Assembly: GCA_022563885.1 (NCBI GenBank)
Contig: JADFMM010000015.1
Coordinates: 1 to 46,355 of the forward strand
Origin: Planctomycetota bacterium
GTDB taxonomy: Bacteria > Planctomycetota > Phycisphaerae > Sedimentisphaerales > Anaerobacaceae
Reading direction: 5' to 3'
DNA length: 46,355 bases
Shown here piece by piece: positions 3,475-46,355 of the stretch. The translations under genes and the position numbers were made by a program. A model generated the notes under the pieces. The model made no database searches. It worked only from the letters and a program-made list of their open reading frames with translations, and was not told where the DNA came from. Positions within the stretch are counted from its first letter, which is position 1. Each line of letters opens with the position of its first letter.

Positions 3475-3556
3475 AGGGCATTACACCTCCGTGGGTCTTT
3501 TTCTGATTGAGTTTCAACGATTCTCTTGAATGGGCACACGCTCGGACCATCGCTTA

Positions 3557-3736
3557 GGGATCTTCAAGGAATAAGTTGTGCAGTTTGAGGTCCAAGTGTG
3601 CCCCATATTTGGTCGCGCCCGACTGAGCGAAACCACAGGCGTAGCTGTCCTACGTCGCGGATTTCGCGACTGAGAAGCGGTCAAAGATGGGGTGCAATTG
3701 GGCATTCAAATGCGGAAGTTATTTCTTGACGATTCC
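3557..3736. mobile_element. MITE-like element, family A, copy 1 (full length)
   Basis: A 180-bp core bounded by imperfect inverted ends of about 25 bp. The left end begins GGGATCTTCAAGGAATAAG; the right end on the other strand reads GGAATCGTCAAGAAATAAC. TTA flanks both sides (3554-3556 and 3737-3739), a possible 3-bp target duplication. The right-hand TTA is the TAA stop codon of the SDR gene. The interior is almost identical to copy 3 at 38334-38513, including a short palindrome around GTCGCG-CGCGAC. No plausible protein is encoded, although both full copies keep a matching chance frame. Confidence 0.8.
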
Positions 3737-4528
3737 TTAGGGACCGTATTGCCCTTCGCTAACGGTCCAGCCGCCGTCGACCGCCAGGACCTGCCCCGTG
3801 GCAAACTTCGAACCATTGGACATGAAATAGATCGCTGCCTCGTCAAGATCTTCGGGGCGACCGATTCGGCCACCGTCCAGGGGTTGCTTCGTCGAGATGA
3901 ATCTGCGGATCTCGTCGTCCGAACTGACGCGTGCGGACATAGGCGTTTCCACCAGGGCCGGGGCGATGACATTGACTCGGATATCGTCCTTCGCGTAGTA
4001 GGCGGCGACGGATTTCGAAAGACCCACGATGGCGGCCTTGGCGGCCGCGTAGGCATGTGTCGAAAAATGGCGCGGCGAAGGAGAAAAACCGAGTACGGAA
4101 CTCATATTCAGAATCGAACCCGGCGTTCGATCCCTTAGGAACGCCTGCACGGCGGCGCGATTCGAATAGACGAGCGAGTTGAAGTTAAGCGACATCGTCT
4201 CAGTCAGCCCGGCATCGGTCAGTTCGTGCAGGGGACCATCGCCCATGCTTCGACCGCTGCCGCCGGCCACATGATAGAGGCCATCGAAGGTGCCAAAGGA
4301 CTCCTTAGCGGTCGCAATGGCCTTGGGTGCCGTGCTCGAGTCGGTGGCATCTCCTACCAGGGCGACACCCTGCTTGCCGAGGTGCTCTGCCGCGGCGTCC
4401 ACACTCTGGGGACTGCGGCCAACCACAACCACGCGAGCCCCCTGCCCTACGAAGGCTTGGGCCGCGGAGAGCCCCAGACCGGTCGTCCCCCCGATGACGA
4501 CAAGGGTCTTTCCGGCCAGTCGTGTCAC
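3737..4528 (-). CDS. Short-chain dehydrogenase/reductase (SDR)
   Basis: A 263-residue classical SDR, a cytoplasmic NAD(P)-dependent oxidoreductase. The cofactor loop is GGTTGLG (residues 13-19), the stabilising motif is HVAGG where NNAG is usual, and the catalytic set is Ser143/144 in NMSSVLG with Tyr160 and Lys164 in YAAAK. The C-terminus carries the usual [10 protein letters not shown]. The start is GTG at 4528, overlapping the stop of the preceding Gfo/Idh/MocA gene by four bases (GTGA), so the two are translationally coupled. The TAA stop is the base triplet at the edge of the family A element. Oxidation of a sugar or sugar acid is likely from context; the substrate is not known. Confidence 0.92.
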
Positions 4529-29530: not shown

Positions 29531-30637
29531 ATGTCTTTTCGTGAGATCTTCTGTCAAGACAAACCGATTGCCCTGCTAGCGCAGGCCTTTGCCTTGGACC
29601 GCGTGGCACACGCCACCATTTTTTCGGGAATGGAGGGTGTGGGGAAGTTCAAAACGGCAAGCGAGTGGGCCAGGCTCTTGCTCTGTCACGAGCCCCGAGC
29701 CCCTGCGGTGCAAGGTCCAAACGAAAGCTGCGGTCGCTGCGCGTCCTGTTGTGCCTGGGAGGGCGGGACGCACCCCGACTTTCACCACGTGTACAAGGAG
29801 TTGCGTCAGTTCACCGCGGATGGCAAAGGCAAGCCCGCGCCGGTGGATCTGCCCATTGACGTGATCCGTGAGTTCCTCATCGAGCGGGTCGCCAGCCGAC
29901 CCACACTCTCCGCCAGGAAGATCTTTGTGGTTGACGAGGCGGAGAAACTTAATACCTCCTCGCAGAACGCCCTGCTCAAGGTACTGGAAGAGCCGCCCGG
30001 CTATTGCTGTATCATTCTGTTGTGTACCCGCTTGGAAAAACTGCTGCCGACGATCAAATCTCGGACACAGGTCGTTCGCTTTGGCCCGATCGATGAGGCC
30101 CGGGTGGTGGACCACCTACGGCGGAAAGGCCTGGAGGATTTCAAGGCTCTTTTCTTCGCTCGCCTTGCGCAGGGAAGTCTGGGGCTGGCCGATCAGTGGG
30201 GCGCTCTGGAAGCTGCGGAGGGCCGGCTCTATGACACCAAACGGCGGATCGTGGCGGGCATGGCCAGGCTGCAACTCGCCGACACACTCGATTTCGCCGG
30301 TCAATTGCTTGACGATGCCAAGGCCCTGTCGGAGAGTTGGGCCGGTCTGGGGGGGCTGACCAGTCGAGCGGATCTGAATCGACGGAGCCAGAAAACGATT
30401 GTGCGGATCCTGGTCTCTTCTCTGGACGATGTCATGAAGTTGCCTTTGGGGCTCGACCGGCGGCCGGTGAATGCGGACCAATGGGATTGTATCGAGGCCC
30501 TCGCATGCCGCATCGGGCCTGAACAGGCGGCGGCGCGGATTGTAGACGGCTATGAGTCGATGCAATGGATCGAAGCGGGCGTAAACGATCGGCTCAATCT
30601 TGAGCGACTCCTTCTGAAGATTGTGAAGGGGATGTAG
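29531..30637 (+). CDS. holB: DNA polymerase III delta-prime subunit
   Basis: A 368-residue clamp-loader subunit. The AAA+ fold has HATIFSGMEGVGK, where the P-loop Lys is followed by Phe rather than Ser/Thr, fitting the non-catalytic delta-prime. A zinc module shows SCGRCASCC, and the helix with VDEAEKLNTSSQNALLKVLE and EEPPGY is typical of delta-prime and tau/gamma. The SRT motif (KSRTQVVRF) stands in the sensor/SRC position. It begins 6 bp after tmk. The TAG stop at 30635-30637 shares its last base with the left end of a family B element. The next gene is the PSP1/RicT homologue. Confidence 0.93.
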   Translation: MSFREIFCQDKPIALLAQAFALDRVAHATIFSGMEGVGKFKTASEWARLLLCHEPRAPAVQGPNESCGRCASCCAWEGGTHPDFHHVYKELRQFTADGKGKPAPVDLPIDVIREFLIERVASRPTLSARKIFVVDEAEKLNTSSQNALLKVLEEPPGYCCIILLCTRLEKLLPTIKSRTQVVRFGPIDEARVVDHLRRKGLEDFKALFFARLAQGSLGLADQWGALEAAEGRLYDTKRRIVAGMARLQLADTLDFAGQLLDDAKALSESWAGLGGLTSRADLNRRSQKTIVRILVSSLDDVMKLPLGLDRRPVNADQWDCIEALACRIGPEQAAARIVDGYESMQWIEAGVNDRLNLERLLLKIVKGM

Positions 30638-30796
30638 GCTCTGTCTGAAAACCCGACCTGGCTTCGAGCGGCCCTTTTTCCGCCTGGCTGCATCCGGCTG
30701 CATCGACGATAGAACAAACATCGCCTGCTTCGCCGCCTTTGCCGGGCGAAAAAATTGCTCGCTCTCGGGCCGAAGGACGGGGTTCCAGAAAGGGCC
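30637..30796. mobile_element. MITE-like element, family B, copy 1 (full length)
   Basis: A 160-bp core with inverted ends. Left GGCTCTGTCTGAAAACCCG; right, read on the other strand, GGCCCTTTCTGGAACCCCG. It is flanked by TA on both sides (30635-30636 and 30797-30798). The interior is nearly the same as copy 2 at 44175-44334 (for example CCTGGCTGCATCCGGCTGCA). It begins in the last base of the holB stop codon and ends about 68 bp before the PSP1/RicT start, so it sits inside the presumed operon. Confidence 0.8.
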
Positions 30797-30865
30797 TAGT
30801 TCTGGTATACTCCACCGTCATCGAAATTAGGGACTAGAAACCGAATCATTAAATCAGGTGATAAT

Positions 30866-34522: not shown

Positions 34523-34543
34523 GGCGTGCAAGACAATACGTTA

Positions 34544-34621
34544 GGGATCGGCAAGAAATAAGTTGGGCAAGATGGGGTGCAATTGGGCGTTCAAAAGTCC
34601 AAGTTATTTCTTGACGTTCCC
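34544..34621. mobile_element. MITE-like element, family A, copy 2 (internally deleted)
   Basis: A 78-bp core with the same ends as the full copies: left GGGATCGGCAAGAAATAAG, right on the other strand GGGAACGTCAAGAAATAAC. TTA flanks both sides (34541-34543 and 34622-34624). Compared with copies 1 and 3, 102 bp of the interior, next to the left end, are missing. It begins 18 bp after the stop of the broken Minf_1886 gene and ends about 50 bp before the convergent motB stop. Confidence 0.8.
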
Positions 34622-34676
34622 TTATTGTTGTGCGGGTCCTTGGGGATGCTGACTGAGCACTCCATCCGCTAGACGG

Positions 34677-38300: not shown

Positions 38301-38333
38301 CTAGTTTGTCCATGGTGGGGCCGGTGATCTTTG

Positions 38334-38513
38334 GGGATCGGCAAGAAATAAGTTGGACAATTTGGGGTCCAAGTGTGCCCCATATTGGGTCGCGTCCGAT
38401 TGAGCGAAACCACAGGCGTAGCTGTCCTACGTCGCGAATTTCGCGACTGAGAAGCGATCAAAGATGAGGTGCAATTGGGCATTCAAAAGTCCAAGTTATT
38501 TCTTGCCGTTCCC
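38334..38513. mobile_element. MITE-like element, family A, copy 3 (full length)
   Basis: A 180-bp core, the same length as copy 1 and closely similar throughout. Left end GGGATCGGCAAGAAATAAG; right end on the other strand GGGAACGGCAAGAAATAAC. TTG precedes the left end; TTA (38514-38516) follows the right end and is the TAA stop codon of fliI. It contains the same GTCGCGAA-TTCGCGAC palindrome as copy 1. It lies inside the flagellar operon between fliI and fliJ. Confidence 0.82.
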
Positions 38514-39881
38514 TTACTGTCCGGCGGGCACGGTGATCAGTTGGTCCCATTGCTCGGTGATGTCCGACAGACGCCGAACAGTCGTTTCGAAGTCTGTCTG
38601 TTGCCCGGCCGGTTGTATGAGGAATTCACGAATACGGTCGATGAGTGTCACCGCGCCGTCAATGCGTCGGTTGCTCCCCGAGGAAAACGCACCGATGTTG
38701 ATCAGGTCCTCGGCATCACTGTAGGTCGCATAGATCTCCTTGAGTTTCAGTGCGGCCTCTTGGTGGGCAGGTTGGGTCACCACGGTCATTAGCCGACTGA
38801 TGCTTTGCAGGATATCGACGGCCGGATAGTGACCTCGCTCGGCAAGTTTGCGCGATAGCACGATGTGGCCGTCCAGCAGGCTCCGTGCGCTGTCGGCAAC
38901 CGGATCAGCCAAGTCGTCATTTTCCACCAGGACGGTGAGGACGCCGGTGATGCTTCCAGAACTGGCATTTCCCAAACGCTCAATGAGTCTCGGCATCAGG
39001 GCGAACACGCTGGGGCAGTAGCCCTTAGTGGTGGGGGGTTCCCCGGCCGCCAGGCCAATTTCGCGTTGAGCCTGAGCAAAACGGGTGAGCGAATCCATCA
39101 TGAAGAGTACGTTTTTAGATTGATCCCGAAAATATTCGGCGATGGTGACCGCCACAAAGGCCGCTTTGACGCGTTGGATGGGGGGGGTGTCTGAGGTGGC
39201 CACCACCACCACGCTACGAGCCAGACCCTCCGGGCCTAGGTTCTCTTCGAGGAATTCACGGACTTCACGACCTCGCTCCCCGATTAGGGCCACGACGTTC
39301 ACATCCGCCGCACTCGAGATTGCGATGTTACCCAACAGGACACTCTTACCGACACCGCTGCCGGCGAAGATCCCCACTCGCTGTCCCTTGGCACAGGTCA
39401 AGAGCCCATCAATGGATCGAATCCCCAAAGGTAGGGGTTCCGTGATGCGCTCCCTTGACAAGGGCGGGGGACTCTGGACATCGAGGGGTTGCTTGTGTTC
39501 CCGACTCAGCGGTCCTTTGTCGTCGATGGGTTCTCCCAGGCCGTTGAGGACGCGTCCAAGAATAGAAGGGCTCAAATAAATGTGACGCGGTGTCCCTCGG
39601 GCGGTGACGGGGTCGCCGGGGCTAATGCCTTCTATATGTTCCATCGGGAGCAGGACCAAGTGAGCTTCCCGAAACCCGACCACCTCGGCCAGGACTCGTC
39701 GGCCGTCACGCAGGTGGATGCCGCAGAGGTCTCCCAGACTGACCGCCGGCCCTGCACTTTCCACCGTTGAACCAATGACGCGGACGACGTGTCCCTGGCA
39801 GATCAATGTGTTCATATCACGGAGGGTGGAGAAGAGTTCGTCGAAATCCACTGCCGCCGTTTCGGATAGGTTGTGTGCCAT
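38514..39881 (-). CDS. fliI: Flagellum-specific ATPase FliI
   Basis: A 455-residue export ATPase that powers unfolding and delivery of flagellar substrates. P-loop GIFAGSGVGKSVLLGN near residue 173; Walker B region NVLFMMDSLTRFAQAQREIG; EPPTTKGYCPSVFALMPRLI is the conserved stretch of FliI and F1-beta relatives. The start lies 3 bp after the fliH stop. The stop codon TAA is also the flank of the family A element; the C-terminus (TEQWDQLITVPAGQ) has about the usual length, so little or nothing was lost by the insertion. Confidence 0.96.
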   Translation of the reverse strand: MAHNLSETAAVDFDELFSTLRDMNTLICQGHVVRVIGSTVESAGPAVSLGDLCGIHLRDGRRVLAEVVGFREAHLVLLPMEHIEGISPGDPVTARGTPRHIYLSPSILGRVLNGLGEPIDDKGPLSREHKQPLDVQSPPPLSRERITEPLPLGIRSIDGLLTCAKGQRVGIFAGSGVGKSVLLGNIAISSAADVNVVALIGERGREVREFLEENLGPEGLARSVVVVATSDTPPIQRVKAAFVAVTIAEYFRDQSKNVLFMMDSLTRFAQAQREIGLAAGEPPTTKGYCPSVFALMPRLIERLGNASSGSITGVLTVLVENDDLADPVADSARSLLDGHIVLSRKLAERGHYPAVDILQSISRLMTVVTQPAHQEAALKLKEIYATYSDAEDLINIGAFSSGSNRRIDGAVTLIDRIREFLIQPAGQQTDFETTVRRLSDITEQWDQLITVPAGQ

Positions 39882-43737: not shown

Positions 43738-44100
43738 TCAGCTCTTGGTGTCCATGGCCAGGGCCATCTGTTGGTAGATCTTGCTCATTAAGCGCAGGTA
43801 GGTCTTGTGGCGAATCGAGTTTTTCATCATGTGGCCGACCTCCTCCTCCCAACTGACGTCGTTGCCGTTGGCCTTCAGTTCTGTGGTCTTGGGCCTATAA
43901 AGCTCCGCCTTGAGTTCTTCTTGGCTCACCGGTTTGCCCGAGTCGAGTGCCTTTTCGAGGAACTCTTCGAAACGAATATCCACGCGCCGGTAGCCGGGGG
44001 TCTGCAGGTTGGCGATGTTCGAGGCGATGGCCTGGTGACGCAGTCCTTCGGCCCTGGCCCCCGCCTCCAGCAGACTCAATATATTGTCTGTCCTTGCCAT
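43738..44100 (-). CDS. flgB: Flagellar basal-body rod protein FlgB
   Basis: A 120-residue proximal rod protein and first gene of the cluster. ATG 44100 is preceded by AGGAGG; the longer upstream frame runs through the promoter and the family B element and is rejected. The rod motif is GLRHQAIASNIANLQTPGYR, the mid-part reads KPVSQEELKAELYRPKTTEL, and the C-terminus is HKTYLRLMSKIYQQMALAMD. Transcription is expected from the sigma-54 promoter at 44155-44170. Confidence 0.94.
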   Translation of the reverse strand: MARTDNILSLLEAGARAEGLRHQAIASNIANLQTPGYRRVDIRFEEFLEKALDSGKPVSQEELKAELYRPKTTELKANGNDVSWEEEVGHMMKNSIRHKTYLRLMSKIYQQMALAMDTKS

Positions 44101-44154
44101 AAGTAGCCTCCTAGATGGTCCGACCATTGCACATGCACATTTTCGAAATCTTAT

Positions 44155-44170
44155 CGCAATCTGCATGCCA
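44155..44170 (-). promoter_or_regulatory. Sigma-54 (-24/-12) promoter of the flgB operon
   Basis: On the minus strand TGGCATGCAGATTGCG fits TGGCAC-N5-TTGCW with one mismatch, and the GG and GC dinucleotides are exactly 10 bp apart. Transcription would start near 44144, giving a leader of about 44 nt with AGGAGG before the flgB ATG. A family B element begins 4 bp upstream of the -24 box, where enhancer-binding sites would normally lie further out. Confidence 0.75.
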
Positions 44171-44174
44171 CACG

Positions 44175-44334
44175 GGCTCTGTCTGAATACCCCATCTGGC
44201 TCCGAGCGGCCCTTCTTCCGCCTGGCTGCATCCGGCTGCATCGACGATTGAACAAACATCGCCTGCTTCGCCGTCTTTGCCAGGCGAAAAAATGGCTCGC
44301 TCTCGGGCCTACGACGGGGTTTTCAGAAAGAGCC
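44175..44334. mobile_element. MITE-like element, family B, copy 2 (full length)
   Basis: A 160-bp core, the same length as copy 1. Left end GGCTCTGTCTGAATACCCC; right end, on the other strand, GGCTCTTTCTGAAAACCCCG. The interior matches copy 1 closely (CGAGCGGCCCTT, CCTGGCTGCATCCGGCTGCA, AACAAACATCGCCTGCTTCG). It lies between the two divergent sigma-54 promoters, only 4 bp from the flgB promoter. The TA flanks seen at copy 1 are absent here. Confidence 0.8.
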
Positions 44335-44648
44335 AAGTTAAAACAGGTAGGGTTGGTCGGCGGACAGGTTGAGGGCTGCGAAAAAGGCGGGCGCTATGTT
44401 CCATAAGTTTTTGGACTTGGGTGGGCTGTGTCAGGATTCTATACAACCCAGTTCACCTATTCAACACACACCCTGAACACCCGATCCCATTCAGCGATCC
44501 ACCCGGCAAAAACTTCCCTGTACCGGCAAGATTCTCCATGCTTCGGACAACGGCCTATCAGGGATGAGGTCCTGCGAACACTCAATATCTACGTAAGTTT
44601 ATTATTGCAAATTAGTTACAGTCCTATCGTTCTGGTTGGGATGCACTG

Positions 44649-44664
44649 TGGCATTGAGTTTGCG
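44649..44664 (+). promoter_or_regulatory. Sigma-54 (-24/-12) promoter of the fliK-like gene
   Basis: TGGCATTGAGTTTGCG again matches TGGCAC-N5-TTGCW with one mismatch (the same A-T in place of A-C as the flgB promoter) and exact 10-bp GG-GC spacing. Transcription would start near 44676, about 75 nt before the fliK start. Confidence 0.75.
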
Positions 44665-44751
44665 TACTCTCCGACGACGTGACATCAAAAAGCGAGTGAC
44701 AGGCTCCAAGGAGACCGAGCTGTCACCGCAACTCGAGACGTGGGCATGGGC

Positions 44752-46355
44752 ATGACCATGAGCATTCAATTGAGCGAAAATCTGTTCGGCGACACGGGCC
44801 CTTCCGGAACAATGATTTCGTCCCAATCCATGTTCTCAGCCCATGACTCTGCGCAGGCGACCCGGCCCGATAGTGACCTCTCTTCCCACCCCACGCGGCC
44901 GTCCGTATACGACGATTGGCAGGCACCTGCCCCAGACGATTTCGAGCGAACGCTCAACCAGCGGATTGATTCTCTAGAGCGACGCGAGGAAGAAAAACCG
45001 GACCCGTCCCCGAGGGCAGACGTAGCGGCACGAAACGATGACCGCCCTGTCCATCGGAACGAAGGGACCCAAGAGATCCGACGTTCCGACCCTACTGGTG
45101 CTGCCGACGAACCCCCATCGGCCAAGGCGACGCGAAAAGAGTCGGTCAATCCGCCACGGGAGGGCGCCAAGTCTCAGACACCGCAAGTGTCCGTTGAGAC
45201 GAAGATGCTGGTCGACCTGCCTGTCCATGCGGTCATGACGGTCACGGAAAAATCATCCCACCCCAGGACACAGGTCAAATCAAACCCGAGAGAGACGGTC
45301 GGTAACGGCGCTGAGACGAGCGACAGGAGCACCCTATTGGCGTCTCTGCGGAGCAGAGAGCAGGGCTCCGGTCGGGGCGTGTTCCATCCTGAAGTGACCC
45401 TTAAGCAGCATCCAAAAGAGCTTCAGGGTTCCTCTCTCGTGAAGGCTCAGCTTACTGCTCAGGGTGCCCCGAAGGAGGTGGCGTCGGTTGCGAAAAACCA
45501 GGCGGGGGAGATGACCCAGCCCGCCAAGGCGGCTTTCTCCGGTTCTGTCGAGTCAAACACGGCTCCAGCCGGGCCTGAGAAAAACACGACGTCACGCGCG
45601 GAGGGCGTGAAACCGGCAATGGGCCAGACCCCATCCAGCGTGTCAGGCAGCGGGCGACTTGATCTGGAAGGTCTTAAACTGCAGACATTGACCCAGCCCC
45701 ATCAAGTGGCTGCACCCGCCAAACAACAGCCGCATGATCTGGCAGAGGCAAACAAAGGCAAGCCCTACGAGGTTTTGGAAGAGCTTCCCACTCGCAAGAG
45801 CGAGCCGTGGGTCACCCGTTCCGGCAGCGCACAGGGCTATTTGTCGGGGAAGCGACCGAAACTTGTCCCCTCTCCGACGGCCGTGACGCCAACCCTCTCA
45901 ACCGGCGGCGAGCAGTCTAGTGTCTTGCCAAAGATCGGCCTGGCAGCGACTCCGGGCAGTGCTCTGGTGTCGCCGCCGGTGGATGCACCTTTCGGCGAGA
46001 TGCCTCTCACAAGGGCCGTACCCGTCAAGGGGACCGACGCGCAGTTGGAGGCCCTCTCCACGAAAGACAACTCTGCCAGCGTCTCCAAGCAGATCATGGA
46101 GTCGATCCACGCTTCGGTCCAGCACGGGCAGAGACGTCTGACGATTGCCTTGCACCCGGCAGAATTGGGCCGCGTCGTCGTCACGCTGGAAGAGGAGAAT
46201 GGTAGCCTCTCGGGCCGGTTGGAGGTGAGCCAGAAACAGACCCGTGCGGAAATCGAGCGGGCCTTGCCGGGCATTCTGCAGAGTCTGCAGAGTTCCGGTG
46301 TGCAGATCAAGAGACTCGACGTCACCCTCAGCAATAATGGCAACGATCCCGGGCC
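44752..46355 (+). CDS. fliK: Flagellar hook-length control protein FliK (3' end cut by window)
   Basis: An open plus-strand frame runs from a stop at 44680-44682 to the window edge, over 530 codons. Three in-frame ATGs (44746, 44752, 44758) and a GTG at 44740 compete as starts; none has a clear ribosome binding site. The first 400 residues are low-complexity, rich in Ser, Thr, Pro, Ala, Lys and Gln, as in FliK. Near the end is the conserved Flg_hook domain: RRLTIALHPAELGRVVVTLE, then SGRLEVSQKQTRAEIERALP and LQSSGVQIKRLDVTLS. It would be exported and set hook length. The sigma-54 promoter at 44649 fits flagellar control. The C-terminus and following genes lie outside the window. Confidence 0.88.
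   Translation, partial: MTMSIQLSENLFGDTGPSGTMISSQSMFSAHDSAQATRPDSDLSSHPTRPSVYDDWQAPAPDDFERTLNQRIDSLERREEEKPDPSPRADVAARNDDRPVHRNEGTQEIRRSDPTGAADEPPSAKATRKESVNPPREGAKSQTPQVSVETKMLVDLPVHAVMTVTEKSSHPRTQVKSNPRETVGNGAETSDRSTLLASLRSREQGSGRGVFHPEVTLKQHPKELQGSSLVKAQLTAQGAPKEVASVAKNQAGEMTQPAKAAFSGSVESNTAPAGPEKNTTSRAEGVKPAMGQTPSSVSGSGRLDLEGLKLQTLTQPHQVAAPAKQQPHDLAEANKGKPYEVLEELPTRKSEPWVTRSGSAQGYLSGKRPKLVPSPTAVTPTLSTGGEQSSVLPKIGLAATPGSALVSPPVDAPFGEMPLTRAVPVKGTDAQLEALSTKDNSASVSKQIMESIHASVQHGQRRLTIALHPAELGRVVVTLEEENGSLSGRLEVSQKQTRAEIERALPGILQSLQSSGVQIKRLDVTLSNNGNDPG

Follow-up and report, generated by a model that had tools for sequence, protein, structure and literature searches.

The DNA between the divergent flagellar genes flgB and fliK of this planctomycete is quite likely a bidirectional sigma-54 control region, in which one shared enhancer would loop to both promoters and in which the insertion of a MITE has been tolerated. 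In the mechanism that we propose, sigma-54 RNA polymerase would wait at a divergent pair of -24/-12 promoters, which serve the basal-body operon flgB-fliI and fliK, respectively. A flagellar NtrC-type activator, the product of gene L014 or L019, would most likely bind the tandem-dyad enhancer, loop to either promoter and open it. Only in this species has the MITE inserted here, at 4 bp from the -24 box of flgB on its upstream side, and the flgB loop would thereby have been stretched from 181 to 351 bp; such activation would normally tolerate the longer loop, and fliK would be unaffected. Activator occupancy, looping, continued flgB expression and the identity of the acting activator are the parts of this mechanism that we infer from sequence as the most likely ones.

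Divergent sigma-54 promoters of flgB and fliK

The window, by which we mean the whole stretch of DNA that was analysed (G000:C239:1-46355; 46,355 bp), belongs to a genome of 6.5 Mb in 470 contigs. Among named records, the relatives of its FliF belong to Planctomycetota/Phycisphaerae, several of them to Sedimentisphaerales, and the nearest is from a Planctomycetota MAG (JADFHU010000049.1; 91% FliF identity). Pfam assigned the leftward genes as flgB, flgC, fliE, fliF, fliG, fliH and fliI, and the rightward product as FliK. The first gene of the flgB-flgC-fliE-fliF-fliG-fliH-fliI operon, flgB, occupies 43738..44100 on the minus strand (Flg_bb_rod), while the hook-length control gene fliK, whose start codon is uncertain, occupies 44740..46353 on the plus strand and extends to the window end (PF02120 Flg_hook, 1.9e-14). 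A search of Rfam gave 0 matches in 43900-44900.

The original prediction had placed two sigma-54 sites here, facing apart, with exact GG-N10-GC spacing and about 480 bp from each other. We found both of them at their places, at a distance of about 481 bp from GG to GG, and both carry GG-N10-GC in a TGGCAY/TTGC context. The putative flgB promoter TGGCATGCAGATTGC (44170-44156, minus strand), about 70 bp ahead of the flgB start codon, was called from the pattern and its conservation, and the putative fliK promoter TGGCATTGAGTTTGC (44649-44663, plus strand) from the pattern and the presence of a divergent partner in relatives. Because TGGCAY-N5-TTGC occurs 54 times in the genome versus 19 times for a reversed control, a lone pattern match is weak evidence; it is the conservation of predicted sites at orthologous promoters that decides whether the sigma-54 sites are real.

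We identified flgB in 40 loci and scored the 600 bp upstream of it, with a threshold of 17.6, the 99th percentile of shuffles. A flgB-facing sigma-54 site scoring at least 17.6 was present in 40/40 loci, usually 60-105 bp before the start codon. Most of the 40 loci also have a fliK-facing partner site, and the simple pattern gave a divergent pair in 36 distinct loci, all of these being raw counts that ignore kinship. Judged by this predicted distribution, the pair of promoters is of ancient origin. The flgB -12 element of the present species ends in TTGCG, off the order consensus, and the core keeps TGGCATG-N4-TTGC. Moreover, this genus, including the sister species that lacks the MITE, shows erosion of the T/A-rich block that in the family is typically located 20-60 bp ahead of the -24 box of flgB. 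The TTGCG ending and the eroded block suggest that flgB control may have relaxed, and since the erosion is seen even in the element-free sister, the relaxation may already have occurred in the genus.

Tandem dyads and candidate activators

When the inter-promoter DNA of relatives was aligned, one strong internal block appeared, GGAGAAATATTCC-N(4-8)-AGGAAAGAATTTCCGG, which comprises, throughout the order, two dyads two helical turns apart with about 6 bp between them. In the window these dyads are GGCAAAAACTTCC (44505..44517; GGAAGTTTTTGCC on the minus strand) and GGCAAGATTCTCC (44525..44537; GGAGAATCTTGCC on the minus strand), which lie 20 bp apart from centre to centre, 130 bp from the fliK promoter and 351 bp from the flgB promoter. 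By the dyad matrix they score 13.6 and 12.5 and rank 2 and 4 among all window 13-mers. The stretch 44500-44540 is identical to the sister at 41/41 positions, and identity at fourfold sites of neighbouring genes is 87-94%. Against the order consensus the window dyads match at 20 of 29, which is below most loci and is reached by 3/1050 shuffles. This consensus was derived partly from the same flgB/fliK loci, and the flgD set is a separate check: the flgD sigma-54 promoter is preceded, at 122-142 bp, by the same dyad pair in 18/27 genomes versus 34/540 shuffles, and the flgD promoter of this genome has GGCAAGATCTGCC/GGAAAATTCTACC about 116 bp upstream. No dyad pair was found at the promoter of the operon that contains L014. 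With tandem, helically phased dyads at least 70 bp upstream and a motif recurring in the predicted regulon, the site is a putative enhancer of the NtrC type.

This enhancer appears to be common to the flgB and fliK promoters. From its centre to the fliK -24 box the distance is 118-142 bp in 35/36 loci, whereas to the flgB -24 box it takes values between 142 and 520 bp and is most often near 197 (36 loci), two relatives having spacings of 430 and 520 bp. The fixed 130 bp to fliK together with the free spacing to flgB suggests that the geometry of fliK constrains the position of the site. Activator sites had been expected 80-150 bp upstream of flgB, and this expectation was not supported: the dyads originally lay about 181 bp from flgB and now lie 351 bp from it, their distance from fliK being about 130 bp. 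It is a rather doubtful extension that the unequal loops from one enhancer, rigid at 130 bp for fliK and drifting over 142-520 bp for flgB, set how strongly relative to each other, and in what order, the two operons are expressed, so that flgB-side MITEs would be a recurrent evolutionary dial and not neutral passengers.

Two further candidates for the flgB side were rejected. Helical phasing of the spacing is weak, with R = 0.46 at 10.5 bp, common descent is a confounder, and 170 bp corresponds to 16.2 turns. IHF sites upstream of flgB show a modest excess in relatives, where 10/36 have at least 8 matches as against about 6.7% of shuffles; this lineage does not show it.

The genome encodes one rpoN with all three domains (AID, core-binding and DNA-binding) and nine complete sigma-54 activators. 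Two of the nine, L014 and L019, are located in a second flagellar cluster that includes flhA, fliM/N, flgD, flgE, flgG and a sigma-70-family gene (likely fliA). They are HTH_8 activators whose genes lie next to flgD and flhA, L019 being divergent and adjoining flgD. Both carry a sigma-54 AAA+ domain with GAFTGA and a Fis-type HTH; L014 has a receiver domain, and L019 has a divergent N-terminus with no Pfam receiver match. A close homologue of L019 is present in 73/77 genomes with flgC versus 4/42 without a close flgC (119 genomes; raw counts, kinship ignored). In the fetched loci of relatives, no activator gene adjoins flgB or fliF. The enhancer-binding activator is most likely to be sought in L014 or L019, two of the nine and both candidates only. 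The original prediction had proposed RpoN-type control and suggested looking for rpoN and for a FlgR/FlrC-type activator in the genome; the complete rpoN, the two NtrC-type candidates inside the flagellar cluster and the order-wide conserved promoters agree with it.

The MITE and its possible effect on flgB

Between the enhancer and the flgB promoter lies a 160-bp palindromic MITE of family B (44175..44334, plus strand) with terminal repeats GGCTCTGTCTGAATACCCC / GGGGTTTTCAGAAAGAGCC. Its distance from the T of the -24 box of flgB is exactly 4 bp, just as predicted. Repeat comparison located a second window copy at 30637..30801 (plus strand), and a stringent end pattern detected at least 141 genome copies, the one at 44175..44334 among them, versus 0 for a control pattern. 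The element is non-coding, has terminal inverted repeats GGCTCTGTCTGAAAAC and measures 160 bp in 34/39 copies; it folds end to end as a palindrome (z = -10.3). TA flanks it on the left in 19/39 copies, on the right in 29/39 and on both sides in 14/39, the window copy itself having CG/AA. The MITE is also present in congeners and in further genera of the family. Because of the terminal repeats, TA flanks, palindromic fold and many copies, we consider it most likely a non-autonomous MITE of the IS630/Tc1-mariner type. A parent IS with matching terminal repeats was not found in its own genome, where only a broken DDE_3 fragment is present, or in five relatives: the DDE_3 genes of G001, G042 and G068 have no matching terminal repeats around them, and G002 and G028 have no DDE_3 gene.

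We then compared the filled site with empty ones, as the original prediction had proposed. The element is absent at this locus in the sister (L054 = G001:C522) and in the more distant congener G002, both of which have the two promoters, so that of these three genomes this one alone carries the insertion. These filled and empty sites, with the terminal repeats, the TA ends and the at least 141 copies, fit the mobile nature that had been ascribed to the repeat. An assembly artefact was rejected, as synteny with the sister holds on either side of the element and identity to this copy does not go beyond 93% in any other copy that was scored. The enhancer-to-flgB spacing was increased from 181 to 351 bp by the 170-bp insertion, which left the enhancer and both promoters intact. 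The insertion had been supposed to have moved or replaced the activator sites of flgB. They were moved, but since the enhancer is intact and outside the element, they were neither replaced nor supplied by it, only placed farther away, and they appear to be common to flgB and fliK. Nor did the suggestion that the element itself carries activator sites hold up, as nothing inside it scores above 4.7 by the dyad matrix, versus 13.6 and 12.5 in the enhancer, and the only dyads of the region lie outside it. As NtrC enhancers are reported to act at 1000 bp or more (PMC7408454), flgB is expected to stay controlled. Another long spacing, the 520 bp of L156 (G028:C230), includes about 320 bp of unrelated inserted DNA, at a locus with a poor FlgC match; it is an independent large insertion, possibly at a decaying locus.

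The main alternative, which we regard as unlikely, is that a near-perfect 160-bp palindrome by the -24 box, through cruciform formation or displacement of the flank, cripples or insulates flgB with fliK remaining active, which would mean poor motility or a decaying system. Such damage would fit the distance of 4 bp, the strong fold, the displaced T/A-rich block and a core promoter that is off the order consensus at -12. However, the core keeps its TGGCATG-N4-TTGC, every flagellar gene tested, whether from the window or from the second cluster, is open and of full length, and other genomes have spacings of 430 and 520 bp, although the one with 520 bp (G028) is that with the poor FlgC. The element may isolate the two promoters, as had also been suggested, but it left the enhancer and both core promoters intact, and those two relatives have even longer flgB-side spacings. 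We favour a shared looping enhancer with a tolerated MITE. It is very improbable that the genes are transcribed mainly from sigma-70-type promoters, with the sigma-54 sites being minor. One match, TTGAAT-N17-TAGAAT at 44464-44436 (minus strand), does lie in a block that is 58/60 identical to the sister, but 0.5 matches are expected by chance and a transcript from it must cross the MITE hairpin, whereas the sigma-54 pair and the enhancer are conserved across the order. That MITE-borne activator sites or an outward promoter rewired flgB is hardly credible: some bacterial MITEs do carry promoters or IHF sites (PMC2229807), but besides the low dyad scores inside this element, the promoter scan detected no sigma-70 site in it and the IHF-like matches of the window copy are not above background.

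A preference of the MITE for insertion near sigma-54 promoters was considered as well. Three cases, the flgB/fliK region, flgD and rpoN, were counted among the 54 pattern hits, but about 2-3 such cases are expected by chance from the copy number and the intergenic preference (a rough estimate), so no preference is claimed.

Known systems and further elements in the genome

Each of the components is already known: sigma-54 enhancers made of tandem dyads, NtrC-type regulators of flagella, and MITEs flanked by TA. The region resembles the NtrC/glnA enhancers in that its dyads stand in tandem at 20 bp and one promoter is about 130 bp away, and in the proposed looping, but here the enhancer lies between two divergent flagellar promoters, with one distance fixed and the other free. 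In Caulobacter, too, ftr sites are common to the divergent promoters of flbG and flaN, and those of flbG lie downstream of the promoter. The activator there is FlbD, an NtrC-family flagellar protein acting at defined ftr sites of sigma-54 flagellar promoters (PMC3930126). In contrast to that system, the present one belongs to another phylum and uses another motif. L014 and L019 are like the FlrC, FleR and FlgR activators in their domains, that is a sigma-54 AAA+ domain with GAFTGA and a Fis-type HTH, and in being encoded in a flagellar cluster. FlrC and FleR are flagellar NtrC-type regulators, and the same is documented for FlgR. (For FlgR, see PMC3930126.) The FlgR of H. pylori has no DNA-binding domain, whereas L014 and L019 both have one. 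In architecture the MITE is similar to RUP of pneumococcus and to the Correia/NEMIS MITEs, which are 100-200 bp long, palindromic, high-copy and non-coding with TA-ended terminal repeats; RUP has been attributed to an IS630-type transposase (PMC2229807).

A sigma-54 survey reports, in the portion considered here, motility enrichment for the class Planctomycetia (PMC12316311), and our literature search, which included that portion, found no site-level description of the flagellar enhancers of this order. For a planctomycete order that is large and uncultured, the present analysis provides a predicted RpoN regulon of flagellar genes, including an enhancer motif and candidate activators. With filled and empty promoters in sister species and relatives at 142-520 bp, one can measure directly how much distance a natural sigma-54 enhancer tolerates, and the MITE between the enhancer and the flgB promoter offers a natural insertion experiment on control flexibility in a known kind of system.

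Several further elements were observed. A second dispersed repeat family with inverted-repeat structure is present in the window at 3554-3751, 34541-34636 and 38331-38528. Elsewhere, a MITE derivative of about 75 bp (L113 4063-4137, G000:C159) lies just upstream of rpoN, with a sigma-54-like site at 4206 (plus strand) pointing away, and another family-B MITE (L110 12970-13123, G000:C228) lies directly upstream of the flgD enhancer. The latter site is empty in the sister G001, and the enhancer and promoter are essentially unchanged. In three of the nine activators (L015, L017 and L018), the loop that contacts sigma-54 has GAFTDA or GTFTDA in place of GAFTGA. In L114 (G000:C130, 1-17778) there are four sigma-54 sites, each preceded at about 85 bp by tandem dyads (for example GGGGATTATTACC / GGGGATTTTTTCC), near a GAFTDA-variant activator gene and genes resembling hemerythrin, ScdA and cytochrome proteins; these sites apparently form a stress regulon apart from the flagellar one, with a different enhancer motif.

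The fliK leader contains TGTCACTCGCTTTTTGATGTCAC (44679..44701, minus strand), whose counterpart TGTCACTCGCTTCGACGTCAC lies between the flgD enhancer and the flgD promoter. For the motif TGTCACTCGCTT-N(4-6)-GTCAC, the fliK leader has one occurrence, the only one in the window, and there is one at L110 13181 (plus strand); it is a possible candidate site of a second flagellar regulator. An inverted repeat, GTGACAGGCTCC...GAGCTGTCAC (44696..44726, plus strand), was also recognized by eye in the fliK leader, and the sister keeps its arms with the loop changed.
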